Positions 20,315-56,023 of a stretch of 64,000 nt of DNA are shown here, piece after piece. Positions within the stretch are counted from its first letter, which is position 1, and each line of letters starts with the position of its first letter. The notes under the pieces are model-generated. The model worked only from the letters and a program-made list of their open reading frames with translations. It had not been told where the DNA came from and searched no databases. This DNA comes from Paenibacillus taihuensis (GTDB lineage: Bacteria; Bacillota; Bacilli; Paenibacillales; Paenibacillaceae), in the NCBI RefSeq assembly GCF_003386535.1, contig NZ_QTTN01000010.1, positions 62,001-126,000 on the forward strand, written 5' to 3'. A program made the position numbers and the translations under genes.

Positions 20315-20351
20315 TCATTTTCTATGTCGCAATGAATATAACCTGAAATGT

Positions 20352-20381
20352 AAAAGGACGCTGCCATCGCAGCATCCTTTT
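20352..20381. terminator. Bidirectional terminator at the end of the glycan locus
   Basis: AAAAGGACGCTGC pairs with GCAGCATCCTTTT (one mismatch/G-U), with A/T runs on both sides. It sits 20 bases past the GH38 stop on the minus strand and after the ridA remnant on the plus strand. Confidence 0.85.
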
Positions 20382-20400
20382 ACATGTTCACATATAAAAA

Positions 20401-23400
20401 CTACTCCACCTTAACCGACTTAATCTCGAACGGCTTGAACGACAACGTGATCGTGCCGTCCGCGCTGATGCTGCACGGCTCGAGCTCGTCCTCCAGCAGG
20501 TTGACGATGCTCGCCCGCTTCGCCGATGCCGGCAGGCGCAGCGTAATCCGGTCGCGGCTGCCCGTCGACTCGTAGAAACGCAGAATCATACCCGTTCCGC
20601 GCTCCTCCTGCTTCACGGTATCGAGGATAACCGAGCGGCTGTCCAGCTGCAGCAGCGTTTGACCAGCCGACGACAATCCGCCGCCTGCACGGGCCGCGCT
20701 CGCACCGGCTGCAACCGCAACCGCCGGACTGTTCAGCTCGGCTGCCCGGCGAACGACATCTGCCGCGCGCCAATCTCCCGCATGCGGCAGGAGCGAGTAC
20801 GTGAACTCGTGCTCGCCCTGATCAGCTGCCGCATCCGGCCATTTCGGCGCACGCAGCAGCGACAGGCGAAGCACGCTATCCTTAATGTCGTAGCCGTACT
20901 TGCAATCATTGAGCAAGCTGACGCCATAGCTGCCTTCCGAAACATCCGCCCAGCGGTGGCTGCACACCTCGTATTGCGCCTGCTCCCAGCTCGTATTCCG
21001 GTGTGTCGGCCGCTCCAACGCGCCGAACGGAATCTCATACGTCGCTTTGGTCGCGAGCACGTCAACCGGGAACGCGACCTTCAGCAGCTTATGGTCCTCA
21101 TGCCACTGCACGCGCGTCTTGAAATCGATCCGCTTCTCCCCGTGATACAGCACGAGATCCTGCGTAATCCGCGATTCGTTCAAGCGCCATTCGAACCGCA
21201 GAATATCAAGCGCCTCGCCGGAGACGATGACTTTACGCTCCACAAGCTCAGCCGCCCCTGCGCGATGCTGCTCGTACTTCGGATCGATATCCCACGCATC
21301 CCAATACAGCGGTCTGTCATGGAAGAATTGAAGCTCGTTCGCCTTCGAACCCTCCGGCAAAACTTCACGTTCCGCCGCTTTATCGTACATACGAGTAATC
21401 TCGCCGCGCTCGTTAAACTCCAGCTTGTAGTGCGGCGTTTCCCACGCGCTCAAATCCTGCTCACGATGAGCGCCAATGCTACCGGCAACTCCAGCTTCAC
21501 GTTGCTCGGAGGCAAGGCGCAGCCAAACCGTTTTGTAACCGAAAGCCGGGATGCCCTTCACTGCAACCGCCAAGGCAGGCTTCACGCCCTCCGCTCCGGC
21601 AATCCAATCTGAGCCGAGCAGATTGCCCGCCTCATCGTATGCACGCATGCCGGCAAGTTCCAGGTCACCATCGATCAGAACCGTCTCGTCCCGCTCCCAG
21701 CCAAGGCTGTTAAACACGACATACGGCGTCCCCTCGCCAGCACCTGCATCAGTATCAGCACCAACACCAGCGCCTGCAACAACCTGACCCGCAATCGTAC
21801 GAAGCGCACGGTTCAGCTCCTGCTTACCGATTGCGAATACTTCCTCATACTCCGCGGCAGACGTCACATACGATTCCGTAATCGCCGTACCCGGAATGAT
21901 ATCGTGGAACTGGTTCAGCAGCATCAGCTTCCAGCCCTTCTCCAGCGACTTCACAGCCGCAGCCGCGGCTGCGGCCGCGGTTACGTCATCCGAAGCTCCA
22001 GCGTACAACCGCGCGAATGTGCTCCAAATTTCAGCATCCCGGTACAACACTTCGGCTTTGCGGTTATACCGTTTATTCCGTCCGTGAGTCGTTAGCGTGC
22101 CGCGGTGCAGCTCCAAGTAGAGGTCGCCATGCCACTCCGGCAGTTCTTCCGCCACCTGCGAGACCGAATCGAAGAACGCGCCGGCTGTGCTGAAATTGCT
22201 CACAGGAAGGCCCGGCATAAGGTCGCTGCGGTGCACGAATTCCACCATCTCGCGCGTAACGCCGCCGCCGCCGTCGCCATGACCGTAGAGCAGCATCAGC
22301 TCGCCGAGTTTATCCTTTTGGCGGTACGCTTCCCAATGCTCCTTCACATCTTTGGGGCGCGTATGCTCATTAACGCCGTGATTCAAGTAAGAGACGATCG
22401 CAGTTCCGTCGATGCCGACCCAGCGGAACAGCTCATGCGGGAACTTGTTCGTGTCGTTCCAGTTGAGCTTCGTCGTCATGAAATAGTCCATGCCCGCCAG
22501 CTTCAGCAGCTGCGGCAGCGATGCGCTATAACCGAACGTATCCGGCAGCCATTCAATAGTCGCGCGCTTGCCGAATTCCTCGCTGTAGAAGAGCTGTCCG
22601 TGCAGCAGCTGACGAACGAGCGACTCGCCGCTCGGAATGTTCAGGTCCGGCTCAATCCACATCCCGCCGACGAGCTCCCAGCGATTCTCGGCGACGGCCC
22701 GTTTGATTTTCGCATAGAGTGCAGGGTCCCGCTCCTTCACCCAGGCATACAGCAGCGGCTGGCTCTGCGAGTAGACGAAATCCGGATACTCCTCCATCAG
22801 CGACGTCATCGTCGAGAACGTGCGGCTTACTTTGCGCACCGTCTCACGGACAGGCCACAGCCACGCGATGTCGATATGCGATTGCCCAACCATATGCATC
22901 TTCCCTTGCAGCGGCCCCGCTGGGAACCGCTCGCGCACACGCGCAGCCAGCGCGTTCTCAATCTCAGCAAGTCGCTCGCCGCCGCTCCACTCCGCTTCCG
23001 ACAAGCACTCAGCCTCTCGCATCGCATCGTACAGCAAGTCCAGCAGCTGCTGACGTTCAGGCGCAGAAGAATCCTCGGGCAGCAAACGCGTCGTTTCATA
23101 CATAGCCTGCACAGTGCGGAGCAAGCTCTGCACCGGCTTGTTCACACGAACAAGCGTAATGTCATACTGAGAGATCGGCTGAGCCTTCGTCTCTTGATTG
23201 TTCAGCGGATCGAACGGCTCCGGAATCGGATCGTACAGCTCGATCTCAAGCAGCGGTGTAAGGCCTGCACCGTCCAAATACAACGGTACAAAATTATGAT
23301 TGCGGTCCAGACCCTGATAGGAAGCACCGTTCACGCGCAGCAGCCCTTCCCCGCCGCCGTTAACCGTCAAACCGGCTGTTCCATGCTCCCACTCGGCAGG

Positions 23401-23619
23401 AATCGTAATTTGCTTCTTCAGAAAATAAGTAATTCCATGCTTTCCGTCGAGTTTCAAATCAGCGCTGAGCTCAACCGTAAACTCTTCACCGCCATCTAAC
23501 GGTTCATATTGCCCCGGCAATATATAGCGCACCTTGCGCATTTCCCAGTCCTTGAGCGGCATCCGCTCTGCCCATTGGCGTTCCGTTAAGTTCCGGATAA
23601 AACGATGAATTCGATACAT
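20401..23619 (-). CDS. GH38 alpha-mannosidase
   Basis: This 1072-residue cytoplasmic enzyme hydrolyses terminal alpha-mannose. The GH38 catalytic domain opens with Gly-Gln-Ser-His-Ile-Asp-Ile-Ala-Trp-Leu-Trp (zinc ligands His and Asp, about residue 250). The nucleophile Asp follows in Trp-Leu-Pro-Asp-Thr-Phe-Gly-Tyr-Ser (about 355). A three-helix middle domain and beta-sandwich C-terminal domains follow; the length is normal for bacterial GH38 (about 1000). No signal peptide is seen, so substrates must be imported. It begins three bases after the GH3 stop, so the two are translationally coupled and last in the locus. Ala- and Gly-rich low-complexity patches occur around residues 545-560 and 625-635. 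Confidence 0.95.
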   Translation of the reverse strand: MYRIHRFIRNLTERQWAERMPLKDWEMRKVRYILPGQYEPLDGGEEFTVELSADLKLDGKHGITYFLKKQITIPAEWEHGTAGLTVNGGGEGLLRVNGASYQGLDRNHNFVPLYLDGAGLTPLLEIELYDPIPEPFDPLNNQETKAQPISQYDITLVRVNKPVQSLLRTVQAMYETTRLLPEDSSAPERQQLLDLLYDAMREAECLSEAEWSGGERLAEIENALAARVRERFPAGPLQGKMHMVGQSHIDIAWLWPVRETVRKVSRTFSTMTSLMEEYPDFVYSQSQPLLYAWVKERDPALYAKIKRAVAENRWELVGGMWIEPDLNIPSGESLVRQLLHGQLFYSEEFGKRATIEWLPDTFGYSASLPQLLKLAGMDYFMTTKLNWNDTNKFPHELFRWVGIDGTAIVSYLNHGVNEHTRPKDVKEHWEAYRQKDKLGELMLLYGHGDGGGGVTREMVEFVHRSDLMPGLPVSNFSTAGAFFDSVSQVAEELPEWHGDLYLELHRGTLTTHGRNKRYNRKAEVLYRDAEIWSTFARLYAGASDDVTAAAAAAAAVKSLEKGWKLMLLNQFHDIIPGTAITESYVTSAAEYEEVFAIGKQELNRALRTIAGQVVAGAGVGADTDAGAGEGTPYVVFNSLGWERDETVLIDGDLELAGMRAYDEAGNLLGSDWIAGAEGVKPALAVAVKGIPAFGYKTVWLRLASEQREAGVAGSIGAHREQDLSAWETPHYKLEFNERGEITRMYDKAAEREVLPEGSKANELQFFHDRPLYWDAWDIDPKYEQHRAGAAELVERKVIVSGEALDILRFEWRLNESRITQDLVLYHGEKRIDFKTRVQWHEDHKLLKVAFPVDVLATKATYEIPFGALERPTHRNTSWEQAQYEVCSHRWADVSEGSYGVSLLNDCKYGYDIKDSVLRLSLLRAPKWPDAAADQGEHEFTYSLLPHAGDWRAADVVRRAAELNSPAVAVAAGASAARAGGGLSSAGQTLLQLDSRSVILDTVKQEERGTGMILRFYESTGSRDRITLRLPASAKRASIVNLLEDELEPCSISADGTITLSFKPFEIKSVKVE

Positions 23620-23622
23620 TTC

Positions 23623-25944
23623 CTACACCTCATCCTGTACAACGGCAAGCGTTGCACGTATTACGTCTTCTGCGTTTCGTCCAACCATAATTTCGAATTC
23701 CCCAGGCTCCACGACTGGCTTCAAGTCCCGGTCAAGCATTTGCAGTTGTTCCCGGCCAATCGTGAAGCTGATCGCCTTCGTCTCTCCCGGCTCCAAAGCA
23801 ACACGTGTGAAGCCCTTCAACTCCTTCGCCGGCCGCGTGATCGAGCTGACTTTATCGCCAACGTAGAGCTGAACAACCTCAACGCCTGCGACCTCGCCCG
23901 TATTCGTCACGTTCGCCATAGCAACCACCTCGCCGTCAGCTCCGATCTGCTCCGAAGACAGCGTCAAATCGCTATACTCGAACGTCGTGTAGCTGAGGCC
24001 GTAGCCGAACGGATACCGCGGCTTCACGTCCATCTCCAAGTAGCGCTTGCCACGGCTGCGCTTACCGTAATAATACACCGGAAGCTGACCGACATGCTTC
24101 GGTACGGAGATCGTCAGTCTGCCGGACGGATTCACATCGCCGAACAAAATATCAGCCAGCGCGCCGCCGCCCTCTTGCCCCGGATACCAAGCTTCCAAGA
24201 TCGCATCGGCGTGCTCGTCAATCCACGGCTCCACGATCGGACGGCCGTTGATGTACACCACGACGAGCCGCTTGCCGAGCTGATGAATGGCCTGTGCCAG
24301 CTCCAGCTGCACGCCCATCAAGTGCAGGCCCGTGCGGTCAATGCCTTCCCCGCACTCCATCTCGCTCATCGCGAGGCCCGATACAACCGATGCGCCTGTG
24401 CGCAGGTCGATCGTGCCTTCGCCAAAGTCGCGCGCGCTGGACCCGCCTAGCGCGAGCACGACCACATCCGCCTGCTCCGCGGCTGCAATCGCGGAAGCGA
24501 AGCCTTCGCGCGAGTCGCCTTGAATGCGGCAGCCCGGCGCATACAATACGCGCTCCTCGCCAATCGCCTCGCGAATTCCGGCGAGCAGCGTAACGACGTG
24601 CTCCTTCGGCTGCGGCGACGTGTAATCGCCCAGCTGATTGTAACCGTTGTCCGCGTTGGGTCCAATGACCGCAACCTTCCCGCTGCCGCTGCCGCTAACA
24701 AACCCCGATTTCGAGAGCGGAAGCACGCCTCCCTCATTTTTCAAGAGTACAATCCCTTGGCGTGCAATTTCACGTGCTAGCGTTGCGTGTTCCTCGCTGC
24801 CAATCACCTTCGCTGCTATCGCCGGATCAACATACGGGCGATCGAACAAGCCCAGCTTGAACTTCGCTTCCAGCACGCGGCCTGCCGCTTTATCCAAGTC
24901 CGCTTCCGTGATCAGGCCTTGGTCCAGCGCTTCCTGCAGATGCCCCGCGAACATCGCGCCGGACATCTCCATATCGATGCCCGCCTTCAGCGACATAGCC
25001 GAAGCTTCCGCACCATTGGCGGCGACATCATGACCCCACGCCAGCATATTAATGGCGCCGCAGTCCGTAATGATGAACCCGTCAAAGCCCCACTCCTCGC
25101 GCAGCACCCCGTTCAGCAGCTCGTCGTTCGAGGTGCATGGCACGCCGTCGATCTCGTTGTACGCCGGCATAATCGACATCGCGCCGGCCTCCACGCCTTT
25201 GCGGAATGGATACAAGTCCACTTCATGCAGCTCGCGCTTGCCGATATGCGCAGGCCCCGCATTGCGTCCGCCTTCCGAAGCGCCATACGCGACAAAATGC
25301 TTCAGCGTCGCAATGAGGCTCGCTTCTCCATCAAGACGCTCCCCTTGCAGCCCCTTCACGGCCGCAGTCGCCATCTCGCCGATCATATACGGGTCCTCGC
25401 CGAAGCATTCCTCGGTACGGCCCCAGCGCGGATCGCGGACCACATCGAGTACCGGCGAATAGGTCGCCGCGCCGCCTTGGCTGCGCGTCTCGAGCGCAAC
25501 CGCGCGGCACATCTCCTCATAGAGCGGCACGTTCCATGTGCTTCCGATCAATAAGGGCACAGGGAATACCGTCGCGCCAATCGCCATATGGCCGTGCGAG
25601 CATTCTTCCCCGAACAGAATCGGAATGCCTAACCGGGATTCCTCAATTGCATAACGCTGAATTTCGTTGACCGCGCGTGCGCCTTCCTCCGGAGACAGCC
25701 CGTTCTCAAGCGTCACTTCCGTCCACGGGTCCGCGCGAAGCGTACCGTAGAGGGAGCCAATCCCTCCCGCTCGAACCTGCTGCTTGAACTCTTCACTGAA
25801 CGCAATCGTACCGTCTTGTTGCTTGTCGTACATTTTCCAGCCGAAGGGCTGCGTCAGCTGACCGATCTTCTCCTCCGTCGTCATCCTCGCCAGCAGATCC
25901 TTCACCCGCTCAGCAGGCAGCCTCGCAGCATCCTTATACAGCAT
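23623..25944 (-). CDS. GH3 beta-glycosidase (beta-glucosidase/xylosidase type)
   Basis: The 773-residue enzyme has the three-domain GH3 layout: an N-terminal barrel with Lys-His-Phe-Val-Ala-Tyr-Gly and the nucleophile Asp in Ile-Ile-Thr-Asp-Cys-Gly-Ala (about residue 293), an alpha/beta sandwich (about 400-620), and a C-terminal fibronectin-III-like domain starting after Tyr-Pro-Phe-Gly-Tyr-Gly-Leu-Ser-Tyr-Thr. Retaining exo-activity on a beta-linked sugar is certain at family level. Glucose, xylose or another sugar cannot be separated by eye. No signal peptide is seen. It lies 96 bases behind the binding-protein gene, across a hairpin, and is coupled to GH38. Confidence 0.94.
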   Translation of the reverse strand: MLYKDAARLPAERVKDLLARMTTEEKIGQLTQPFGWKMYDKQQDGTIAFSEEFKQQVRAGGIGSLYGTLRADPWTEVTLENGLSPEEGARAVNEIQRYAIEESRLGIPILFGEECSHGHMAIGATVFPVPLLIGSTWNVPLYEEMCRAVALETRSQGGAATYSPVLDVVRDPRWGRTEECFGEDPYMIGEMATAAVKGLQGERLDGEASLIATLKHFVAYGASEGGRNAGPAHIGKRELHEVDLYPFRKGVEAGAMSIMPAYNEIDGVPCTSNDELLNGVLREEWGFDGFIITDCGAINMLAWGHDVAANGAEASAMSLKAGIDMEMSGAMFAGHLQEALDQGLITEADLDKAAGRVLEAKFKLGLFDRPYVDPAIAAKVIGSEEHATLAREIARQGIVLLKNEGGVLPLSKSGFVSGSGSGKVAVIGPNADNGYNQLGDYTSPQPKEHVVTLLAGIREAIGEERVLYAPGCRIQGDSREGFASAIAAAEQADVVVLALGGSSARDFGEGTIDLRTGASVVSGLAMSEMECGEGIDRTGLHLMGVQLELAQAIHQLGKRLVVVYINGRPIVEPWIDEHADAILEAWYPGQEGGGALADILFGDVNPSGRLTISVPKHVGQLPVYYYGKRSRGKRYLEMDVKPRYPFGYGLSYTTFEYSDLTLSSEQIGADGEVVAMANVTNTGEVAGVEVVQLYVGDKVSSITRPAKELKGFTRVALEPGETKAISFTIGREQLQMLDRDLKPVVEPGEFEIMVGRNAEDVIRATLAVVQDEV

Positions 25945-25980
25945 AATCCTCTCCCCAATCTCCCCAAGATAATGACAGAA

Positions 25981-26006
25981 GGAAGTACGCGCATAGGCGT
26001 ACTTCC
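25981..26006 (-). promoter_or_regulatory. Stem-loop between binding-protein and GH3 genes
   Basis: On the minus strand GGAAGTACGC pairs with GCGTACTTCC around a six-base loop, followed by TTCTGTC, which is a poor U-run. It is probably a partial terminator or an mRNA-stabilising hairpin that lowers enzyme expression relative to the binding protein. Confidence 0.55.
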
Positions 26007-26040
26007 TGCTAGTTGCAGCTATGGTATTACTCCATCTCGA

Positions 26041-27714
26041 TTACTTCTTCTCGATAGCGGATTGATAGATTTGGATGTATTGTGCCAGGTTCAGGCCATC
26101 GAAGCCTTTCACGTAGCCATCCCAATCCTTCTCAATGTCCTTATCGCCGATGATGAATTGCGCCATGTTCGTGTTGACATAATCCTTAATGGATGTCGCG
26201 AGCTGCGCAATCGTATCTGTGTCTTCCGGTTTCACGTAAGTGCCGGAAGGATAGCTTTCCTTCGGTGCAAACGGTGCATAAGTTGCCGTTGCGTCAGCAA
26301 GACGTTTCTCGTAGCCTGCGCCTGTAAGCGGATCTTGCGCCGTTGCGAAGAGATCACGGAATTCCTTCGACAGATCTTTCGGTCCAAGCAACGACCAGCT
26401 GTCATTGCGGACGGCGTTCGGGTCCACTGGCTGCAGGTTGGAGAAGCTGTATTTGGCAGGCTGTCCGGAAATATTCAATTCGCCAGCGTCAGCTTTCTTC
26501 CAGCCAATGCCTTCCTTCTGGCCGTACTCGCTGAACAATGCGCCTTCTTCGCTGTATGCATAATCCGCGATCTTGATTGCCGCGATTTGCTGCTCTTCGC
26601 TCGCTTTGTTCGTAATCGCCATCGGGAACTCGCTGATGCCTTGCGACATGCCTGCCAGCTGCACGCCTTCAGGTCCTTTGAGCGGAGGCACGATTACCCA
26701 GTGCTTCTGACGCTCGTCTTTGTCTTCAAATGCTTTAACCAGGTAGCTGACAAGCGCCGTTGTAATGGAGCCGACGATTTCGTCGCCTTCACGCTGGCCA
26801 AGCTGGCCAACCGCTTGGTCGTTCTGCGTGAATACCGCTTTGTCGATCAAGCCTTCGCTGTACAGCTTGTGCATGTAAGCGAGACCTTCTTTCCACTGCG
26901 GTTTGTTCGCCGCAAAGTCAACCTTGCCGTCCGTTACCGTCAAATACTTGTCGTTATCGTTGTAAATAAAGGAGTTCATGATGAACGCATCGATGTTACC
27001 GTTCCAAACGCTTTTGTTCGGAGCGCCTGTAAGCGGAATTTCGTCTGCTTTGCCGTTGCCGTTCGGATCTTGCGTCTTGAATGCCTTCAGCACGTTGTAC
27101 AGCTCATCCGTTGTTGTAGGCACTTTCAGGCCAAGCTTATCCAGCCAAGCTTGGTTCATCCAGTACTTCTGCGAGAACGTACAGTGGTAACATTCGTTCA
27201 GGCGCGGAATGCCGTAGATATTGCCGTCCGGCGCTGTCATCGCTTCTTTCATGTACGGCTTCTTGTCCATCATCGCTTTGATGTTCGGCGCGTACTTGTC
27301 GATCAGATCGTTAAGCGGAATAAGAACGCCTTGCTTGCCGTAAGTCGTCAAATCCGAAGTCGTGAATTTGCCTTCAAGGAACACTTCCGGATAGTCGCCG
27401 CTCGCAAGCAGCAGCTGTCTGCGGTCAACAAGCGCGTCCGTTGGCGCAAGGTCCCATTTGATTTTTACGTTGAACTTCTGTTCAACCAGCTTCGTATAGT
27501 CGTTGTCCTCAAGCGGTGCTTTACCTTGTGGAGCGAAGAAGCCGATGTCTACAGGCTCGGCAGGCGTTTCAGCCTGATTCGAGGAATTGCTTGCGGCATT
27601 GCCGCTTTTCTCTGTGTTATTCGATGTGTTGTCACCGCTGTTGCTGCCGCAAGCGGACAGCACGATGCTGCTAATTAGTATAAGCATTAACGATACCAAG
27701 ATGGACTTTTTCAA
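26041..27714 (-). CDS. Oligosaccharide-binding lipoprotein (LipO-type, ABC transporter)
   Basis: This is a 557-residue solute-binding protein with a lipoprotein signal ending in Leu-Ser-Ala-Cys-Gly-Ser (Cys at residue 21) and a Ser/Asn/Thr linker. The large size and features such as Gly-Ile-Pro-Arg-Leu-Asn, Pro-Asn-Gly-Asn-Gly-Lys-Ala-Asp-Glu-Ile-Pro-Leu-Thr (a calcium-loop-like segment at about 170-182) and Trp-Val-Ile-Val-Pro-Pro identify the long CUT1 binding proteins paired with LplB/LplC permeases. Bound ligands in this class are typically complex oligosaccharides. It follows the two permeases and precedes GH3 and GH38 on the same strand. Confidence 0.93.
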   Translation of the reverse strand: MKKSILVSLMLILISSIVLSACGSNSGDNTSNNTEKSGNAASNSSNQAETPAEPVDIGFFAPQGKAPLEDNDYTKLVEQKFNVKIKWDLAPTDALVDRRQLLLASGDYPEVFLEGKFTTSDLTTYGKQGVLIPLNDLIDKYAPNIKAMMDKKPYMKEAMTAPDGNIYGIPRLNECYHCTFSQKYWMNQAWLDKLGLKVPTTTDELYNVLKAFKTQDPNGNGKADEIPLTGAPNKSVWNGNIDAFIMNSFIYNDNDKYLTVTDGKVDFAANKPQWKEGLAYMHKLYSEGLIDKAVFTQNDQAVGQLGQREGDEIVGSITTALVSYLVKAFEDKDERQKHWVIVPPLKGPEGVQLAGMSQGISEFPMAITNKASEEQQIAAIKIADYAYSEEGALFSEYGQKEGIGWKKADAGELNISGQPAKYSFSNLQPVDPNAVRNDSWSLLGPKDLSKEFRDLFATAQDPLTGAGYEKRLADATATYAPFAPKESYPSGTYVKPEDTDTIAQLATSIKDYVNTNMAQFIIGDKDIEKDWDGYVKGFDGLNLAQYIQIYQSAIEKK

Positions 27715-27886
27715 AAGTGGTTCCTCCTTATGAATGGTCTTCGTTTGCTGCAGCTGTCTTGAAGTTACCTTCAGACAGTTCCCCCTGACTCTATGACACT
27801 AAACCTTGTTGCTCGACGTTGCTCGCATTCCTCTGCCGCCCCACCTCCAGCCAGAATTCACAATCGCATGCTATGGAAATCAGCCC

Positions 27887-28786
27887 TTAACCCTTCAAGG
27901 ATCCGATCATAACCCCTTTTACAAAATGCTTCTGCACGAACGGATACATAATGAGCACCGGTACGCAGGCGACGACGATGAGCGCATATTTCAGCACTTG
28001 CTCGAAGCCCTTATCCCGCAAGCTTTGCGCCGTATTCGCCAGCATCTCCGGATCTGCCGCATTCAGAATGAGCAGGTTCCGAAGCACATACTGCAGCGGG
28101 AACAGATGCTCCGATCGGAGATAGATGAGCGCATCGAAGTAGGCATTCCAGTGTCCGACCGCATACATCAAGGTCATAACCGCGATAATCGGCTTGGACA
28201 GCGGCAGCGCAACGCTCCACAGGTAACGAATGTCCCGGCAGCCGTCAATTTGCGCGGCTTCCTGCAGCTCGTGCGGAATAGAAGCCATGAAGAACGTTCT
28301 TGCAATGATAACCTGGAAGACGGAGAGTGCACCTGGCAGCCACAACGCCCAGCGCGTATCCAGCATGTGTAAATTTTTCACCAATAAGTACGTCGGTATG
28401 AGCCCGCCGCTGAAAAACATCGTAATCATCATGAGAATCATAAAGAAGCTGCGGCCAGCCATCTTCTTCTGCGAGAGCGGGTAGGCCATTAATATGGTGA
28501 ACGATACGTTGATGAACGTACCGACTACCGTATAGACAAGACTGTTGTAGAAGCCGAGCATCAGCTGCGAGCTTTGGAAGATGGACTTGTACGCCCGCAT
28601 CGAGAATTCCACGGGGAACAGCCACACCTGTCCGGATACGACCGCATCAGGCGAGCTGAGCGATGAACTTAGAATATAAAGCAGAGGATACAGAACCGTC
28701 AGTGTCAGCAGGGCAAGCAGCGCATAGATCACGTATAGCAGGACGCGATCCCCGAACGGTTCTCTTATTTTTTGTTGAATGATCAT
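27887..28786 (-). CDS. ABC transporter permease, LplC family
   Basis: This 299-residue permease has about six membrane segments. It carries the LplC/YtcP signatures: Leu-Tyr-Ile-Leu-Ser-Ser-Ser-Leu-Ser near the first helix, the EAA loop Glu-Leu-Gln-Glu-Ala-Ala-Gln-Ile-Asp-Gly-Cys (about 190), and a C-terminus ending Gly-Val-Met-Ile-Gly-Ser-Leu-Lys-Gly. ATG 28786 is chosen because AGGCGG lies 6 bases upstream; a GTG seven codons earlier overlaps the LplB stop. No ATPase gene is present in the locus, so the system presumably uses a shared MsmX-like ATPase. Confidence 0.93.
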   Translation of the reverse strand: MIIQQKIREPFGDRVLLYVIYALLALLTLTVLYPLLYILSSSLSSPDAVVSGQVWLFPVEFSMRAYKSIFQSSQLMLGFYNSLVYTVVGTFINVSFTILMAYPLSQKKMAGRSFFMILMMITMFFSGGLIPTYLLVKNLHMLDTRWALWLPGALSVFQVIIARTFFMASIPHELQEAAQIDGCRDIRYLWSVALPLSKPIIAVMTLMYAVGHWNAYFDALIYLRSEHLFPLQYVLRNLLILNAADPEMLANTAQSLRDKGFEQVLKYALIVVACVPVLIMYPFVQKHFVKGVMIGSLKG

Positions 28787-28800
28787 GTCGGGCCGCCTTT

Positions 28801-29706
28801 CTACCACAAGCTGTTTTCGGAAACTCTGCGCGCAATTGAATTCACAACGACGAGCAGGACGAGGTTGATAACCGAGTTGAACAATCCCACTGCAGACGAG
28901 AAGCTGAAGTTCGCCCCGAGCAGACCCACCTTGTACACATAAGTCGAAATTACCTCGGATGTACTCAAGTTAAGCGGATTTTGCATCAGGTAGATTTTCT
29001 CGAAGCCGACCGCCATGACGTTGCCCAAGCTGAGAATGAGCATCGTCACCATAATCGGGAAGAGCGACGGCAGATCGATATGAATGATCTTCTTGAACCG
29101 GGAAGCTCCGTCCATGCGTGCCGCTTCATAGAGCGACGGATCGACGCTGGCGAGTGCCGCGATATAGATAATGGAGGCATACCCCATCTCCTGCCATACC
29201 CCTGACCAGACGTAGATGGATTTGAACAACCCCGGCTCACCCATGAAGTTGATATTCGAGAAGCCCAGGAAGTCGAAGACGCGGTCCACGACGCCGACGT
29301 GCGGCGAGAGCATCAGGATGATGATCGATACCATGACGACCGTCGAAATAAAGTGAGGCGCGTAAGTGATCATTTGAACGGATCGCTTGAAGAAGCCTGT
29401 CCGTATTTCATTAAGTGCAAGCGCCAGCAGGATCGGTACCGGGAAGCCTGCGATTAATGAATAGAAGCTGATTAGCAGCGTGTTCTTAATGAGGAGCGGA
29501 AAGTTCGGCGAGTGGAACAGGTTGTGGAAATGTTTGAAGCCCACCCATGGGCTGCCGAGGATTCCTTTAATGACGTTAAAATCTTTGAAAGCGATGATTA
29601 CCCCGAACATCGGGATATAATTGAAAATAATAAGATAGAGCACCGGAAGCAGGATGAGGAGATACAGCTCCCAGCTTTGCTTCACTCTATTCCATGTCTG
29701 CGCCAC
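28801..29706 (-). CDS. ABC transporter permease, LplB family
   Basis: This is a 301-residue permease. The opening Leu-Leu-Pro-Val-Leu-Tyr-Leu-Ile-Ile-Phe-Asn-Tyr-Ile-Pro-Met and Val-Ile-Ala-Phe-Lys-Asp-Phe, the EAA loop Tyr-Glu-Ala-Ala-Arg-Met-Asp-Gly-Ala (about 195) and the end Ser-Glu-Asn-Ser-Leu-Trp are standard for LplB. It is the first transport gene after the membrane AraC regulator. Its stop lies 14 bases from the LplC start. Confidence 0.94.
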   Translation of the reverse strand: MAQTWNRVKQSWELYLLILLPVLYLIIFNYIPMFGVIIAFKDFNVIKGILGSPWVGFKHFHNLFHSPNFPLLIKNTLLISFYSLIAGFPVPILLALALNEIRTGFFKRSVQMITYAPHFISTVVMVSIIILMLSPHVGVVDRVFDFLGFSNINFMGEPGLFKSIYVWSGVWQEMGYASIIYIAALASVDPSLYEAARMDGASRFKKIIHIDLPSLFPIMVTMLILSLGNVMAVGFEKIYLMQNPLNLSTSEVISTYVYKVGLLGANFSFSSAVGLFNSVINLVLLVVVNSIARRVSENSLW

Positions 29707-29916
29707 CTTAGCAACCCCCTTTAGTCAGAATCGTTCTTGTGTAGGTCGATCTTAGCCCGTTCCTCGCTTCTCCAGCAATTCGTAAGATTCTGTAAAGATC
29801 ACGATTTTCGCAAATCCGCGCCAGACCTGGCTTTTTGCGCATGCGAAAGATGTGTACTCCTCTTTTTTCTACGGCACGAGTTTTTCGCCGGGGCATGCTG
29901 AAGCCTGCTGCAACAA

Positions 29917-29964
29917 CGAAAAAACCTTGAAGTCCGCCGCTGCCGCTGGCCTGACTCCAAGGTT
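29917..29964 (-). terminator. Terminator after the membrane AraC regulator
   Basis: On the minus strand AACCTTGgAGTC pairs with GACTtCAAGGTT, followed by TTTTTTCG. It separates the regulator transcript from the transporter genes, so the latter need their own promoter in 29707-29916, where I see no clear consensus. Confidence 0.75.
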
Positions 29965-30005
29965 CGAGAAGAATATTGCATATACGGCTTGCTGCACGAG
30001 CGCCG

Positions 30006-32222
30006 CTAGCCTGTCTGCTGTTTGCGATAATCGCTTGGCGAGACACCGGCAATGTTCTTGAACGCGCGATTGAAGGAATTGTAGTTAAAGTAGCCGACTT
30101 CCGTGCTAATTTCCTGAAGGGATTGGTCCGTAGTGAGCAGCAGCTGCTTCGCCTTGTCCATCCGCAGCCCAATCAAGAAGTCAACGAAGTTATAACCGTA
30201 CTCTTCCTTGAACAGCTTGCTGATGTTCTTGGCATGAATGGTGAACTGGTCGCTTAGATAATCGAGCGACAGCTCCGGATTGTGATAGTTCCCTTCGATA
30301 AAAGCACGAATATCGCTAATAACGGCACGCGTCCGCTGCGAATCCTTCATCGCCTGCAGCTTGCTCGTCATCTCTTCGAAGATGTGCAGGCAGCCTTGCT
30401 TCAATTCCTCTAACGTCTCCCAGTTTCGTCCGAGCGTGAGCAGCTCTGCGCCCGTATCTTTCCATACGCTGCGATGATCCTTGGACAGCTCCAGGAATAC
30501 CCGATTCAGCTGTTGATGGAGGAACTGCAGGAAGCTCTCAATCTCCTTACGCGACGAGATCGAATCTTGCATCTGGTCGAATAACGCAAGCGCTTGCTTC
30601 CGCCAAGCGCCGTCCGAGATTCGAATCGACTGCGATAACGCATGAATGGTACCGAAGTAATCATGCACGCGAAGCTCAGAGCCTTCGAGCTCCGTAGAAC
30701 GAAGAACTCGCCCTGTGCCGAGCACCGCCTTGTACTGCAGCAGGTTGCCGGCGAACTCGTGGGAGCGGCGGATTTCTTCCAGATTATCGGCCATGCCGTG
30801 AACGCCGATCGTAACCGTGAAGCTTAAGTTGCTGTGCACCCACTGCACGATTTGCTCCGCTATCTGGCCGCTAAGCTCTTCGCCATCCACATCGTTCGGC
30901 ACCCAGATGATCGCCGACATGCGACGGTCCGATATCCATTCCGCCCATGCCGTCGCCTTCTGAAGCGCGGCCATCTCCCCCGTTACACTGGAGACGACGA
31001 ATTTCAGAATCGATTGATCCTGGCGGTTGTAAGCTTCGATAAACGGTTGATACCGATCGATTTCAAACACGAGCACGAACGCCTGCGAGCCGGCTGGATT
31101 CACCTGCAGGGCAAGCAAGTCTGCCTCCCATTCCGACTCACGGATCGGGACAAGTCCTTCAACCGCTTCCTGGAACCGGTGCTTCTTGCGCATGATGAAT
31201 GTTTTCTGGTTCTGCTGCATGGACTTCGATGTTTCTTCCAGCAGCTGCTCCAGCGCGCCTTGAATAAAGCCAAACTCGTTTCTGCCAGACTGCTCATGAT
31301 ACGGATTGATTAAAGAGCTTGTCCGAATAATGGATACAAGCTGACTGATCGGTTTATAATTGCGGCGCGTTACATGGACAACCCATATCACGCCAAGCAG
31401 TACAGCGACGACAGCAATAATGACCCAGATGTTGTAGAAATTGAGCGCAATATGAGTCAGTCCCCCAGCCGATGGCCCGCTCTCGACCGTCCAGCCGGTA
31501 TAAGGGGATATGTAGTGCGACAATACACTGCTCTCGCCATTCGCCCCGGCGTCAGCCATGAGCGTAGCGCCTTGACCATCCGTAATTCGCATGTACGTCA
31601 GCTTCGAATTGTACATCGGCGCAATCGACTTCTTCAGCTTGGATAAGCTGACATTGACGACGATATACCCTTTCTTGACGGTCGAGAAGTGCGGATAGCC
31701 CTGCACCAGGGTAATCACATCAGTCGCGGTTGGAGCCGCCGTTATATAAGGATTGAAGCTGCGCTTGCCTGTCCATTTGCCGGCTGTCGCCTTCTGATTG
31801 ATATACGTCTGAATGAAGGGCCGATCCCCGAATGAAGCGGCTTCTCCCGAACCGTCCCCGAGGACGAAGTTATCTTGCAGCCGAATTAAATAAACCGAAT
31901 CGATAATGGCGTAGTTCAGCTTCCAATCGTCCATCAGCTTCGTCGCCTGGATGTTGCGATACACATCGCTGTTATCCGTATTAAAGAACAACCGAACCTC
32001 ATCGGCCGTAAGCGTGTCGCGCAGCACTTGATAGTTCAGCGTCTTCAGCGAATTGTCCGTGAATAGAACGACCTGCTGCGTCAGAAATTCGTTCGCTTTA
32101 ATCGCTTGTTTCCGGTTCTGCTCATTGAGCGACTGGAAGAACACGACGAATAGAATCGTGACCACGACAAAAAACACGGGAAGATAAGATAAAAGCAATT
32201 TGCGGAACCAGCTGCTGTTCAT
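30006..32222 (-). CDS. Membrane-bound AraC-family regulator (YtdP/RhgR type)
   Basis: The 738-residue product has a membrane helix (about 9-30), a large outer Cache-like sensor (about 31-255), a second membrane helix (about 258-280), a HAMP-like and GGDEF-like intermediate region, and a C-terminal AraC DNA-binding domain (about 635-735: His-Ala-Lys-Asn-Ile-Ser-Lys-Leu-Phe-Lys, then Phe-Asn-Tyr-Asn-Ser-Phe-Asn-Arg-Ala-Phe-Lys). This one-component design senses a sugar or binding-protein state outside the cell and activates adjacent glycan genes directly. It lies inside the locus, between GH29 and the LplB permease, and is flanked by its own promoter and terminator, so it is the likely local activator. 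Confidence 0.92.
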   Translation of the reverse strand: MNSSWFRKLLLSYLPVFFVVVTILFVVFFQSLNEQNRKQAIKANEFLTQQVVLFTDNSLKTLNYQVLRDTLTADEVRLFFNTDNSDVYRNIQATKLMDDWKLNYAIIDSVYLIRLQDNFVLGDGSGEAASFGDRPFIQTYINQKATAGKWTGKRSFNPYITAAPTATDVITLVQGYPHFSTVKKGYIVVNVSLSKLKKSIAPMYNSKLTYMRITDGQGATLMADAGANGESSVLSHYISPYTGWTVESGPSAGGLTHIALNFYNIWVIIAVVAVLLGVIWVVHVTRRNYKPISQLVSIIRTSSLINPYHEQSGRNEFGFIQGALEQLLEETSKSMQQNQKTFIMRKKHRFQEAVEGLVPIRESEWEADLLALQVNPAGSQAFVLVFEIDRYQPFIEAYNRQDQSILKFVVSSVTGEMAALQKATAWAEWISDRRMSAIIWVPNDVDGEELSGQIAEQIVQWVHSNLSFTVTIGVHGMADNLEEIRRSHEFAGNLLQYKAVLGTGRVLRSTELEGSELRVHDYFGTIHALSQSIRISDGAWRKQALALFDQMQDSISSRKEIESFLQFLHQQLNRVFLELSKDHRSVWKDTGAELLTLGRNWETLEELKQGCLHIFEEMTSKLQAMKDSQRTRAVISDIRAFIEGNYHNPELSLDYLSDQFTIHAKNISKLFKEEYGYNFVDFLIGLRMDKAKQLLLTTDQSLQEISTEVGYFNYNSFNRAFKNIAGVSPSDYRKQQTG

Positions 32223-32273
32223 GTGGACCCCTCCTCCTTTATCTAATCATCCCGTGCCTAATCTAAGACATCT

Positions 32274-32303
32274 ATTTTACATGATTTGTCGAAATGATTC
32301 CAA
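32274..32303 (-). promoter_or_regulatory. Probable promoter of the membrane AraC regulator
   Basis: On the minus strand a -35 TTGGAA (32303-32298), an 18-base spacer and a -10 TAAAAT (32279-32274) precede a leader with GGAGGAGG before the regulator start. Confidence 0.4.
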
Positions 32304-32323
32304 CTGAATCCATTACCAACCGT

Positions 32324-33709
32324 TTATTTCGTCGAAATGCGGAACACATGCGCAATCGGCGCTTTGCCTTGCAGTTCGCTTGCCGGCAGCTGGATCGTTA
32401 CGCCTTCGTCGTCTTGCGAATAGCTGATCGGCTCATCCGATGCAAGCAGCTCGATGCCTGTGATCGTATCCGTATACGGGATGCGGATCTGTTCCGACAG
32501 TTCCGCATCTTCGCTCGCATACAGATACGTTGCATATACCGTGTCATCCTTGCGCGTAAATGCACATTGACCTGTATAATATGGCGCGCAAATCCGCGTG
32601 CCGTATACCGCTTCGCCGTATACTTTCATCCATGCGCCCAGATCCTTCATGCTCTTAAGCGCGCCTGCCGGCAGACGTCCGTCCGGCTGCGGTCCAACGT
32701 TAAGCGCCAGGTTGCCGCCCTTCGCTACAACCTCCATCAAGATGTGGACGAGCTGGCGTGCGGACTTGTATTTGTCCTCGAATTTGAACGAGAACGAGGT
32801 GCCGATCGTGATGCAGCTTTCCCATGGCACATTCAGCGGACGATGCGGAATCGTCTGCTCCGGCGTCACATAGTTCTCGTATGCGCCGCCAACGGTGCGG
32901 TCAGCGGACAGCAGCCAAGGCTGCGTCACTCTTGCGCGCTCCACAACCTCGCCCAGTCGGATATCCTGGCTGACGCGGCCGCCTTCGCGTACCCAACCCG
33001 CATCGAGCCATAGAACATCGATGCGGCCGTAGCGCGTCATCAGCTCCATAATCTGATCATGCGTAAACTGGACGAACTTCTCCCACAGCTCCGGATTCTC
33101 TTGCGGGTTATACGACGGTCCGCGCCATGTACGCGTGCCGCGTTCCATGCCTGGCGCCCAATAATACGGCGTATGCCAGTCCGCCTTCGAGAAGTACGAA
33201 GCAATCGCAAGCCCTTTGTCCCGGAATGCGTCGAAGACGTTCTTCGCGATATCGGCGTACTTATGCGTGTGGAACGGCGTTTGTTCGCCAGTAATGCGGT
33301 ATTCCGTCGTCTTCGTATCCCACATGCAGAAGCCGTCGTGATGCTTCGTCGTGAAGATCAGATATTTGAAGCCGCCGTCCGCAGCTGCCTCCGCCCACTT
33401 CTCCGGCTCGAAGCGAAACGGATTGAACGTCTGATTCAGGTCGAAATACTCCCGTTTCATCTGTTCATAATCATTCGTCCAGTCGACGTCGTTTCGGGAC
33501 CAATCGCCGTCATCGTCACTCAAAATCCACGATTCGACCATTCCGATCTGGGAATAAGGGCCCCAGTGCATCATTAGCGCCAGCTTCTGATCCTTGAACC
33601 ATTCGAGCCGCTCCAGCGTGACGGGATTGTCCGGCTTCACCCATTCCGCTTCGCTGCTGTAATTATGGACGCCATTCTCGACCTCATGTACCGTTTCGTT
33701 CTCGCTCAT
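32324..33709 (-). CDS. GH29 alpha-L-fucosidase
   Basis: This is a 461-residue cytoplasmic enzyme. The GH29 barrel is clear: Met-Met-His-Trp-Gly-Pro-Tyr-Ser (about 46-53), Thr-Thr-Lys-His-His-Asp-Gly-Phe-Cys-Met-Trp (about 118-128) and the nucleophile Asp in Val-Leu-Trp-Leu-Asp-Ala-Gly-Trp (about 231). A beta-sandwich domain completes it. It removes terminal alpha-L-fucose with retention. No signal peptide is seen. It lies 52 bases after the GH125 gene, a gap containing a direct repeat, and precedes the membrane AraC regulator. Confidence 0.95.
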   Translation of the reverse strand: MSENETVHEVENGVHNYSSEAEWVKPDNPVTLERLEWFKDQKLALMMHWGPYSQIGMVESWILSDDDGDWSRNDVDWTNDYEQMKREYFDLNQTFNPFRFEPEKWAEAAADGGFKYLIFTTKHHDGFCMWDTKTTEYRITGEQTPFHTHKYADIAKNVFDAFRDKGLAIASYFSKADWHTPYYWAPGMERGTRTWRGPSYNPQENPELWEKFVQFTHDQIMELMTRYGRIDVLWLDAGWVREGGRVSQDIRLGEVVERARVTQPWLLSADRTVGGAYENYVTPEQTIPHRPLNVPWESCITIGTSFSFKFEDKYKSARQLVHILMEVVAKGGNLALNVGPQPDGRLPAGALKSMKDLGAWMKVYGEAVYGTRICAPYYTGQCAFTRKDDTVYATYLYASEDAELSEQIRIPYTDTITGIELLASDEPISYSQDDEGVTIQLPASELQGKAPIAHVFRISTK

Positions 33710-33734
33710 CTATTTAACCTCCCTAATCATTCAC

Positions 33735-33767
33735 GGAAACAATTATTCAATATGGAAACCATTATCC
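33735..33767 (-). promoter_or_regulatory. Direct repeat upstream of GH29 (candidate AraC-type site)
   Basis: On the minus strand GGATAATgGTTTCC (33767-33754) is followed 19 bp later by GAATAATtGTTTCC (33748-33735). Two same-direction half-sites about two helical turns apart is the classic AraC-family binding layout. One copy overlaps the GH125 stop. Confidence 0.45.
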
Positions 33768-35081
33768 AAGTATCTTGTGCAGCTTGTTTTCTTGCATCAG
33801 CTTCAGAATGAGCTCGCCGAACAGCGTATTCGCCCATGCGAACCACGAACGCGTGAAGTTTCTCGGATCATCAACGTCGAACCCTTCGTGCATGAAGCCC
33901 GTGTCGCCGTCCGTATCGATCAGCAGTCGAACCAGCTCGGCCACTTCTTCTTCGTCCGTCGACGTGAGCGCCTGCATCACGAGGCTGATGTGCCAAATAT
34001 AGCGCGGCGGCGTATGCGGGCTTCCGATACCGCGGGCGCGGATGCCTTCGTAATAGTACGGATTGTCCGAGCTTAGGATAAACCGGCGCGTGTTCTTGTA
34101 AATCGGATCATCCTTCGCTGCATAGCCGAGATAGGGAATCGACAGCAAGCTTGGCACGTTCGCGTCATCCATCAGCGCGTAATTGCCTTTCCCGTCTGCT
34201 TCGTAGGCGTACATTTCGCCGTAGACCGGATGCTTATAGATACCATGAGCTGCGATGCCGCCATCGATGTCGGCCTTCAGCGCCAAGGCGTCAGTCTCCA
34301 GCTGATCGTCACCAAGTACATCTGTCGCGAGTTCCGCCAAATAGCCAAGCACGACGCTTGCGAACATATTCGCCGGAACAAGGTAGCCGTATGCGCACGC
34401 ATCGTCGCTTGGACGGAAGCCCGACCACGTCATGCCTGTATAGGCGACCGGCTCGCCCATTCCATTGTTGTGGATCGTGTCGCTATATGGTCCCGATGTG
34501 CGGGTGAATCGATATGGCGACTGCTCCATATGATGCTGCTCGGTGCGCCACAGCTGCACAATTCGCGCCGCTGCTTCACGGAATGTATCGTCGAACGGAG
34601 CCGTACGGCCCGTCTGCTTCCAGTACAGATACGCGATCTGGATCGGATAGCAGAGCGAATCGATCTCATATTTGCGCTCCCACACCCATGGGTTCGGTTC
34701 AGGCAGCTCCGTGATGTCGTCTTCCCAGCGGTTGTTATTCGCCTCTTCGTTGAACGCATTGGCGTAAGGGTCCATCAGAATGCTGGTGAACTGCCGCTTG
34801 AGCAGCCCTTCAATGATGCGTCCAAGCTCTTCGTCCTCGGAAGCCAATTGAATATAGGGGCGAACCTGGGCGCTCGAGTCACGCAGCCACATCGCCGGAA
34901 TGTCGCCGGTAATAACGAAGGTTGAGCCGTCCTCCATCAGCCGTGTTGTCGTCTCGAGTGTATTCGGGAAACATTGCTTGAACATCCGTGCAAGCTTCGG
35001 ATACGGCGCGAGCTCCTTCTCCGCTCTAGCAAGTACGTCTAAAATCGATTGAGGCATTTGTTGCAGTTGCAAAGTGGACAC
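33762..35081 (-). CDS. GH125 exo-alpha-1,6-mannosidase
   Basis: This is a 439-residue metal-independent alpha-mannosidase with an (alpha/alpha)6 barrel. Signature stretches are Met-Trp-Leu-Arg-Asp-Ser-Ser-Ala-Gln (about 64-72), Asp-Ser-Leu-Cys-Tyr-Pro-Ile (about 140), Trp-Ser-Gly-Phe-Arg-Pro-Ser-Asp-Asp (about 220-228) and Phe-Met-His-Glu-Gly-Phe (about 391-396). The last two match the proposed acid and base of characterised GH125 enzymes, which cut alpha-1,6-mannose from N-glycan cores. No signal peptide is seen. It is placed between GH35 and GH29 in the same direction. The combination with GH38 gives activity on both mannose arms. Confidence 0.93.
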
Positions 35082-35108
35082 CTTCTTCTATTGGAATTTT
35101 GAGATAAA

Positions 35109-36884
35109 CTAGCTTGGATTCTGATCGAGTATATGCGAATCGGTAAACCAGACTACGCCATGCTCCGTTCCATGCAGCTCAAAGATAATAATCTCATTGT
35201 CGCCCTCGCGCAGCAACGGTCCAGGTACATACAAGGTTCTCTGCGGCCCTTTGTTCCAGTAGCGGCCTAAGTTGAAGCCGTTCAAGAAGACGACGCCTTT
35301 CGTCCAGCCCTTCATGTCGAGGAACGTGTCCGCTGCTTCGCGATCCGTTACATGCAGCGTTCCCCTGTAGAACTTCGGAGTGGATGAAGCAAGACTGGAA
35401 TCGCGATTTGAAAAAGACAACTTAGACAAGTCCGCAAGCGGCAGCGGTCGAATCTTCCAATCGAATAAGTATTGGAAGCCTAGCCTTACCCCTTCGGTAA
35501 TGCCTTTATGATCCTTCAGGAAAGGGCCGTAATTGATTCTGCCCATATTCTCCACGAGAATGTCGAGCGTCGCCCCGCCTTCAGGCACTGTGATCGTTAC
35601 GGATTGCGGCACCGGATTCCGTTCGATAACCCCTTGGTACACACCGTCCAAGAAGATCGGCGCTCTGTCCCGAACGTCATGCAGAACCAGCTGTTCCGCC
35701 GGGCGAGGCCCGGAAATCCGCGTCGAATATAGAATAAATCCATATTGCTGGCCTACCCGTTCCATCGGAAGCGGCGTAACGGATTGCACCTGCGCGGACA
35801 GCGCATCCAACTGCTCGAACAAGTCCGCTTGCTCTGTCAGCTGGACTCGGCCGTATGCTTGTTTCGGTGTTGCTGGCGGAAGCTCGAGCTCTGAAAGCGG
35901 AATATACTTGGCAATCACCTGCCGTGCGGCAAAATATTTGTCCGTCGGTTCCCCCGTCTCATCGAGCATCGCATCATAGTCGTAACTCGTGACGGTCGGC
36001 TCATACAGATTCGGTTCCTGGCAGTTCGCTCCATTGTAGAAGCCGAAGTTCGTCCCGCCGTGGAACATATAGAAATTGACGGACGCGCCGATACTCAGCA
36101 TCTCGTCGAGTACGCCGGCTGCATCGAGCGCATCCCGCGTATGATGGGTTTTGCCCCAGTGGTCGAACCAGCCATTCCAGAACTCCATGCACATAAGCGG
36201 TTCGTCCGATTGATAATCCTTCAGCTTCGCGAAAGCCGAAGCAGGGCCAGAGCCGAAATTGACGGTCGACAGCACACCAGGCACCGATCCGCCTTGCAAT
36301 AGCGCATCTGTCGGGCCATCCGAGGTAAACAACGGTACATCGATGCCGCGCGCGATGAGTCCGTCCTTCAGATACGCCAAGTACTTCGCATCATTGCCGT
36401 AGCTGCCATATTCGTTCTCGATTTGCACCGCGATAATCGGTCCGCCGTTCGTACACAGGAGCGGCGTAAGCCGTGGAATCAGCTCATCGTAATACGCATC
36501 CACCTTGGCTAGATACGCGGGGTGGCTGCATCTCAGCTGTATATAAGGATCTGCCAGCAGCCATGCCGGCAATCCGCCGAATTCCCATTCTGCACAAATA
36601 TACGGGCTTGGCCGAACGATAACATGAAGTCCGAGACTGCCCGCAAGCTCCACATAGGCGGCAACGTCAGCCATCCCGTCGAAACGAAACTCGCCTTCCT
36701 TCGGCTCGTGAAAATTCCAAGGAATGTACGTCTCCACCGTATTCAATCCGCAAGCCTTCAGCTTAAGCAACCGGTCCCGCCAATACGCCGGCAAGGTTCG
36801 AAAATAGTGCATCGCCCCAGAGAGCAGCCTAACAGGCTCGCCGTCATATACGAAACCAGATTTCTCTATTGAAAATGGACGCAA
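35109..36884 (-). CDS. GH35 beta-galactosidase
   Basis: The 591-residue enzyme has a GH35 barrel with Gly-Ala-Met-His-Tyr-Phe-Arg (about 23-29) and Trp-Asn-Phe-His-Glu-Pro (about 56-61). The acid/base Glu lies in Gln-Ile-Glu-Asn-Glu-Tyr-Gly (about 153), the nucleophile Glu in Met-Glu-Phe-Trp-Asn-Gly-Trp (about 231) and the C-terminal jelly-roll domains have a Trp-Asn-Lys-Gly-Pro-Gln stretch. No signal peptide is seen. This short bacterial GH35 type often prefers beta-1,3-linked galactose. It is the first gene of the locus, 28 bases before GH125. Confidence 0.95.
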   Translation of the reverse strand: MRPFSIEKSGFVYDGEPVRLLSGAMHYFRTLPAYWRDRLLKLKACGLNTVETYIPWNFHEPKEGEFRFDGMADVAAYVELAGSLGLHVIVRPSPYICAEWEFGGLPAWLLADPYIQLRCSHPAYLAKVDAYYDELIPRLTPLLCTNGGPIIAVQIENEYGSYGNDAKYLAYLKDGLIARGIDVPLFTSDGPTDALLQGGSVPGVLSTVNFGSGPASAFAKLKDYQSDEPLMCMEFWNGWFDHWGKTHHTRDALDAAGVLDEMLSIGASVNFYMFHGGTNFGFYNGANCQEPNLYEPTVTSYDYDAMLDETGEPTDKYFAARQVIAKYIPLSELELPPATPKQAYGRVQLTEQADLFEQLDALSAQVQSVTPLPMERVGQQYGFILYSTRISGPRPAEQLVLHDVRDRAPIFLDGVYQGVIERNPVPQSVTITVPEGGATLDILVENMGRINYGPFLKDHKGITEGVRLGFQYLFDWKIRPLPLADLSKLSFSNRDSSLASSTPKFYRGTLHVTDREAADTFLDMKGWTKGVVFLNGFNLGRYWNKGPQRTLYVPGPLLREGDNEIIIFELHGTEHGVVWFTDSHILDQNPS

Positions 36885-37042: not shown

Positions 37043-37074
37043 AAAAAAAAGCGTGCCGCCCTAAGGCAGCACGC
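37043..37074 (-). terminator. Rho-independent terminator of the GyrI-like AraC regulator
   Basis: On the minus strand AGCGTGCTGCC pairs with GGCGGCACGCT (one mismatch) around TTAG, followed by eight T's. Confidence 0.85.
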
Positions 37075-37144
37075 TGAGTATGGAAAAATGCGCAAACTGA
37101 GGTGCGAAGAAAGAAAGATCAAACTCGCTCTAAGCGGGTCAGCG

Positions 37145-41608: not shown

Positions 41609-41815
41609 TCTCGCACGTCTCCCTTTGCACACCATGATAGTCGAACATCTCCTCTTGAATATAGCACGGCGGCCACGGTCGGCCGATAGCCGAACACAAC
41701 AAGAAATTGTCCGATTACAACATGAAGATCAAGCTGGCAGGGCTAGTACAATGCGTCATAATCTCTTATCATAAAAGAAATATATCCATTCGTACCCGCG
41801 AAGGAGCGCACGATA

Positions 41816-56004: not shown

Positions 56005-56023
56005 TTTGATGGAGGGATATGAG

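Follow-up and report, generated by a model that had tools for sequence, protein, structure and literature searches.

A nine-gene block of Paenibacillus taihuensis as a probable system for the uptake and dismantling of complex-type N-glycans

The locus and its genes

The stretch of DNA analysed here, called the window, comprises 64,000 nucleotides of Paenibacillus taihuensis (contig NZ_QTTN01000010.1). Nine open reading frames (ORFs) from its ORF list, all on the minus strand, occupy positions 20401-36884. Read from 5' to 3' they encode proteins of the glycoside hydrolase (GH) families GH35, GH125 and GH29, a membrane AraC-type regulator, two permeases, a binding lipoprotein, and members of GH3 and GH38 (Table 1). 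The intergenic gaps from GH35 to GH38 measure 27, 52, 101, 299, -7, 172, 96 and 3 base pairs (bp). An earlier sequence-only reading had described nine collinear same-strand genes for importing and dismantling plant-type complex N-glycans. The layout is borne out, and its family identities all hold (Pfam; PDB sequence matches for the binding protein). We likewise conclude that the block is probably dedicated to taking up and dismantling complex-type N-glycans, for which plants are the most likely source.

Table 1 Features of the block and its edges, in window coordinates
Feature	Position	Strand	Basis
Likely terminator of the upstream AraC/GyrI-like gene, hairpin plus T run between that gene and GH35	37050..37075	-	Terminator scan; strong hairpin
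GH35 exo-beta-galactosidase (predicted), first gene, TTG start	35109..36884	-	Pfam GH35 4.4e-119; best PDB 4mad, E 1.3e-233
GH125 exo-alpha-1,6-mannosidase family protein	33762..35081	-	Pfam 3.7e-165; PDB 2nvp/5m7i, E about 1e-157
GH29 alpha-L-fucosidase, A-type by nearest relatives	32324..33709	-	Pfam 1.4e-80; best PDB 6gn6
Membrane AraC-type regulator: N-terminal membrane/sensor half, C-terminal helix-turn-helix	30006..32222	-	HTH_18 7.4e-21 at 656-735; hydrophobic N-terminus by eye
ATP-binding cassette (ABC) permease, LplB type	28801..29706	-	BPD_transp_1 3.2e-16
ABC permease, LplC type	27887..28807	-	BPD_transp_1 1e-06
Solute-binding lipoprotein, nearest FusA/AlgQ (cluster G, large oligosaccharides)	26041..27714	-	5g5z E 1.4e-55, residues 74-552
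GH3 glycosidase, most likely a beta-xylosidase	23623..25944	-	Pfam 4.8e-72; PDB 7zb3/8c7f
GH38 alpha-mannosidase, Ams1 type, 3 bp behind GH3	20401..23619	-	Pfam GH38N 1.8e-86; best PDB Ams1, 533 bits
Likely terminator behind GH38, near-perfect hairpin	about 20349..20384	-	Read from sequence; partly in terminator scan

Gene company in relatives

The N-glycan part of this conclusion draws good support from the genes that stand together in related bacteria, which use recurring variants of the same gene set, some with unexpected partners. The loci compared (L numbers) were hand-picked rather than random, related genomes are not independent, and the coordinate lists for CutC, asparaginase, GH3 and GH125 hold the best matches rather than all of them. 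GH125 was rejected as a marker on its own: 326 of the 394 genomes in this family have it, and being so widespread it is informative only through its gene company.

This company is most telling around GH3. Of 20 other loci with the same GH3, 18 also hold GH125 and 17 hold this GH38; GH130 accompanies them in seven and a protein that we call c9 in ten, the two never together. A set of GH3, GH38 and GH125 beside either GH130 or c9 points to gear for the mannose-beta1,4-N-acetylglucosamine (Man-beta1,4-GlcNAc) core, and this recurrence supports the reading as N-glycans. A structural model of c9 shows the fold of clan GH-A, and beta-mannosidases rank first or nearly so in the comparison, level with GH42. 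The c9 protein itself, of about 1050 residues, is encoded at L014 5560-8703 and also in L016, L071, L132, L134 and L136-L143, where it stands beside GH3-GH125 in the place of GH130.

A search with the GH125 protein found 11 named loci, four of which (Paenibacillus L010, L011, L012 and L020) keep the series GH35-GH125-GH29-AraC-permease-permease-binding protein-GH3, the fetched stretch stopping at GH3. GH125, GH29 and the permeases are kept together with extra genes in L013, L014 and L015 (L013, from Cohnella, is covered to the second permease), and in the four loci L016-L019 GH125 stands in other company. The Cohnella version also carries an 870-residue protein with a transglutaminase core, PF01841 (L013 12344-14956), possibly a peptidase or PNGase-like enzyme.

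Along with the enzymes, the transporter can be followed. Among the matches listed, orthologs of the binding protein with at least 67% identity occur at 80 places, in genomes from the same family. Thirty such loci were fetched and 29 tallied, L082 being left out as it is cut by a contig end. AraC is present in all 29, GH29 in 25, GH38 and a second GH29 in 18 each, and GH3 in 16, every time with GH38. A xylose-isomerase-like protein follows with 14, GH35 with 11, CutC and a Gfo/Idh/MocA dehydrogenase with 10 each, asparaginase II with five, BNR_2 with three, GH125 with two and c9 with one. By the GH29 tally, the transporter is most steadily accompanied by fucose removal. At seven loci the binding protein is a paralog; these have GH29 as well, and GH3, GH38, GH35 and CutC are absent from them. 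L081 has an added GH29-B enzyme (best PDB 3ues, E 3.3e-165). In L070, L071, L073-L075 and L077-L081 the Gfo/Idh/MocA dehydrogenase occurs together with the xylose-isomerase-like TIM barrel; such a pair might form a redox route for one sugar, for example the missing GlcNAc step.

The five glycosidases

What the single enzymes may act on can be judged from their nearest solved relatives in PDB sequence searches. Papers are cited below by PMC number. For GH35, 4mad is far nearer than other solved enzymes. This entry is BgaC of B. circulans (PMC6566704), which was used to make type 1 chains in a study cited there; nearness to it would fit removal of beta1,3-linked (type 1) galactose. GH29-B structures match the block's GH29 much more weakly than 6gn6 does, and an antennary alpha1,4-fucosidase of GH29-B type is absent from the block. 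A GH29-B-like fucosidase, related to the enzyme of L081, is encoded elsewhere in the genome (contig C41, L098 16586-17938). The two beta-xylosidases 7zb3 and 8c7f match GH3 with 594 and 591 bits, the next entry with 531. The GH38 matches Ams1 with 533 bits and the 2wyh type with only 46; 2wyh is, we assume, the type of the pneumococcal GH38, which would then differ from the Ams1-type enzyme of the block.

Conserved acidic positions in the sequences were listed as candidate catalytic residues. Inspection by eye revealed no apparent signal peptide at the N-terminus of any of the five enzymes, in agreement with the sequence-only reading.

The importer

The binding protein has no Pfam match at 1e-3, and solved solute-binding proteins match along its length. 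Its N-terminus reads by eye as a lipoprotein signal with an LSAC lipobox. Proteins of the FusA/AlgQ group, its nearest relatives, take oligosaccharides of at least three units. Membership in this group fits the uptake of an intact glycan, yet points to no particular sugar. We rejected an assignment to the pneumococcal NgtS type, for which 5g5z had been taken for NgtS, as 5g5y is FusA according to the published paper. The importer thus lends the N-glycan reading no independent support: the closest match of its binding protein is FusA and not the N-glycan binder NgtS.

Weighing the readings

What is observed is which genes the block holds, how they are ordered, their common strand and the company that relatives conserve; on this we build the following sequence of transport and enzyme steps. 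The membrane AraC protein would turn the genes on, and the binding lipoprotein and two permeases, with a shared ATPase, would import an intact fucosylated oligosaccharide. Inside the cell GH35 would take off beta1,3-galactose and GH29 fucose, GH38 and GH125 would strip alpha-mannose from the arms, and GH3 would take beta1,2-xylose off the core. The leftover Man-beta1,4-GlcNAc would be dealt with by enzymes encoded outside the block; in relatives, GH130 or c9, next to the same three genes, would do this. We favour the plant complex type because GH35 lies near BgaC, GH3 near beta-xylosidases, and a GH29-B-like fucosidase is encoded elsewhere in the genome. The substrate proposed in the sequence-only reading is supported as to its N-glycan core and favoured as to plant type, with the importer remaining neutral. 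In the open library searched, we found no relevant paper that joins N-glycans, GH125 and Paenibacillus.

Several observations weigh against this picture. A genome-wide profile search for GH85, GH92 and GH20, three of the four families that the sequence-only reading had proposed to look for, gave no GH85, no GH92 and one partial GH20 match outside the block. No hexosaminidase is found among the nine proteins by Pfam, as had been stated before. The earlier suggestion that GH3 acts on beta-xylose gains from its solved relatives, but NCBIfam profiles cannot choose: xylosidase/arabinosidase scores 596 bits and 1,3/1,6-glucosidase 593, both below cut-off. An NgtS entry is absent among the 15 PDB sequences that match the binding protein at 1e-3, and NgtS is the first match of two further binding proteins from this genome that served as controls (L102, L098), so that NgtS likeness is undiagnostic in any case. 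GH29 is missing from four of the 29 transporter loci and GH38 from 11; these 11 loci without the mannosidase argue against one fixed substrate, and the transporter serves other gene sets too. Finally, the GH125-GH38 pair also serves mannan and high-mannose glycans.

Could the block then act on something else? Other alpha-mannosylated, fucosylated glycans come to mind, such as insect or invertebrate N-glycans and fungal or algal heteromannans, with GH3 as a beta-glucosidase or acting on differently placed xylose. The exo-enzymes would work on these as well, the genome holds twelve GH38, and the profiles leave the specificity of GH3 undecided. As GH130 or c9 beside GH3-GH38-GH125 in relatives speaks for a beta-mannosyl core, and the nearness of GH35 to BgaC fits type 1 galactose, we think this rather unlikely. 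That the main food consists of high-mannose or yeast mannan fragments, with GH35, GH29 and GH3 trimming occasional decorations, appears improbable: fragments of mannan need no more than GH125 and GH38 (PMC10154615), but the enzyme most often kept with the transporter is GH29 (25/29) rather than a mannosidase (18/29), GH76, GH92 and GH99 are not in the block, and GH92 is lacking genome-wide. Even less probable is a fucosylated, galactosylated cell-wall oligosaccharide, such as one from xyloglucan or from side chains of pectin, in which case the mannosidases would serve a sugar imported along with it. GH29, GH35 and GH3 would suit fucosylated xyloglucan, and a cluster G binding protein of another bacterium binds xyloglucan (PMC12710961). 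Yet the known xyloglucan binder 9pmy matches the block's protein weakly (E 3.5e-8), neither GH31 nor GH95 was recognised among the genes of the block (GH31 being absent among the nine proteins by Pfam), and GH38 and GH125 would be left without a role. By profile search the genome has one GH125, the block's own, and four GH29 genes in five match rows.

How the glycan may be freed

If the block does serve plant complex N-glycans, their source may be free glycans shed by plants or imported glycopeptides whose asparagine link is cut inside the cell. According to the review PMC10154615, GH18 or GH85 enzymes with activity on plant N-glycans had not been described. Free complex N-glycans occur in the culture fluid of plants, which release them with one or two GlcNAc and in some cases with Lewis a (PMC4154441; see also PMC12622904). 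A bacterial endoglycosidase may thus be unnecessary, because plants shed such glycans or because glycopeptides may be imported.

The second route is hinted at by the company of asparaginase II and CutC. Asparaginase II lies inside the locus at seven distinct places (L013, L014, L015, L062, L070, L071 and L079; L066 is the place of L014). Its position next to GH125 in L014 and L015 was dropped as proof on its own, since it is the sole copy there and chance is possible; it gained weight through its recurrence at the other five places and beside CutC. Among the matches listed, CutC lies within 25 kb (kilobases) of the binding protein in 30 of the 43 genomes that have both; of 73 genomes with both asparaginase II and CutC, 50 have the two no more than 15 kb apart. 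At 20 places chosen for the adjacency of these two genes (L107-L126), ROK occurs in 14, an M17 aminopeptidase in 13 and an M20 peptidase in seven; peptide-type ABC parts are found in four to six and GH29 in four, and sugar ABC parts also occur. In L. casei, a GH29, an M20 peptidase, a glycosylasparaginase and a ROK kinase act on fucosyl-GlcNAc-asparagine (Fuc-GlcNAc-Asn; PMC6960285). Because that set is similar, the asparaginase II-CutC module looks like one for glycopeptide breakdown, and this company suggests that CutC works in the breakdown of glycosyl-asparagine.

Taken together, these findings allow a bolder but doubtful proposal: plant complex N-glycans would be imported on asparagine or a short peptide, the link would be cut inside by asparaginase II (PF06089) with CutC, and c9 would be a new Man-beta1,4-GlcNAc-cleaving family that replaces GH130. 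Asparaginase II, presumably unrelated to AsnA2 of L. casei, would then be a non-classical glycosylasparaginase, and CutC, instead of being a copper protein, would help to break down glycosyl-asparagine, for example by acting on a 1-amino-GlcNAc product. The need for an endoglycosidase would be removed. In the open library searched, we found no statement tying CutC to asparaginase or glycosidases.

In the P. taihuensis genome the two genes lie apart. Asparaginase II (L105 7310-8353) adjoins a NagB/6-phosphogluconolactonase-family gene, and CutC (L098 14997-15707) lies on contig C41 beside a xylose-isomerase-like protein and the GH29-B-like gene. This part of C41 (L098 9234-17938) is a second transporter locus, which also has an NgtS-like binding protein and a Gfo/Idh/MocA protein.

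Boundaries and setting

The block is flanked by genes of unrelated function: upstream an AraC/GyrI-like regulator (37145-38056; Pfam), downstream a DUF3238 protein on the opposite strand (18823-19413). Over the region, terminator-like sites (18, shuffle mean 16.6) and promoter-like sites (12, shuffle mean 11.0) are not above shuffles.

Elsewhere in the window, GH127-like and alpha-L-rhamnosidase-like proteins near the block (39680-41635 and 56006-58399) show no sign of membership in the block. A 1216-residue protein at 6948-10598 combines a TLC ATP/ADP-transporter-like domain, HEAT repeats and cyclic-nucleotide-binding domains, and an S-layer-anchored protein at 60072-63965 carries CBM_X2 and CE2_N along with an incomplete alpha-galactosidase domain.

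Comparison with known systems

The bacterial routes to plant N-glycans known so far are, to our knowledge, Gram-negative. If the plant N-glycan reading holds, a Gram-positive soil bacterium with ABC import of the whole glycan and intracellular splitting would represent a second route and could provide tools for trimming plant-made proteins; the same gene company renders the roles of CutC and c9 testable.

The alf-2 pathway of L. casei resembles the asparaginase II-CutC module of relatives in its GH29, M20 peptidase, hydrolase of the asparagine link and ROK kinase, but differs in its small substrate, Fuc-GlcNAc-Asn, its MFS permease and its autoprocessed AsnA2, and CutC is not mentioned in the paper (PMC6960285). 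The Xanthomonas nix cluster shares fucosidases and a beta-galactosidase with the block and, as in some relatives of the block, has a neuraminidase-like gene and an asparaginase nearby; it relies on a TonB receptor and secreted enzymes and is without an ABC importer (PMC5700972). The pneumococcal carbohydrate-processing locus is alike in GH38, GH125, GH29 and an ABC importer for large N-glycan pieces, but has GH92, GH20C and GH85, lacks GH3 and GH35, and uses NgtS as its solute-binding protein (PMC5215778). Its GH38-GH125 pair is present in the block by Pfam.

Judged by families and nearest relatives, the predicted activities of the block, with the GH29-B-like fucosidase encoded elsewhere in the genome, may parallel those of the plant N-glycan set of Bacteroides massiliensis, which has a GH3 beta1,2-xylosidase, core and antennary GH29, a beta1,3-galactosidase and an AraC-type regulator (PMC9522356). 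That system employs GH92, GH2, PNGase, GH20 and SusC/D import, in contrast to the P. taihuensis block, which unites GH38, GH125 and GH35 with ABC import and from which GH92 is absent. Its pathway follows a strict order, in which GH3 acts once the alpha1,3-mannose is gone (PMC9522356); in the P. taihuensis block, the genes for GH3 and the alpha-mannosidase GH38 are the pair lying only 3 bp apart.
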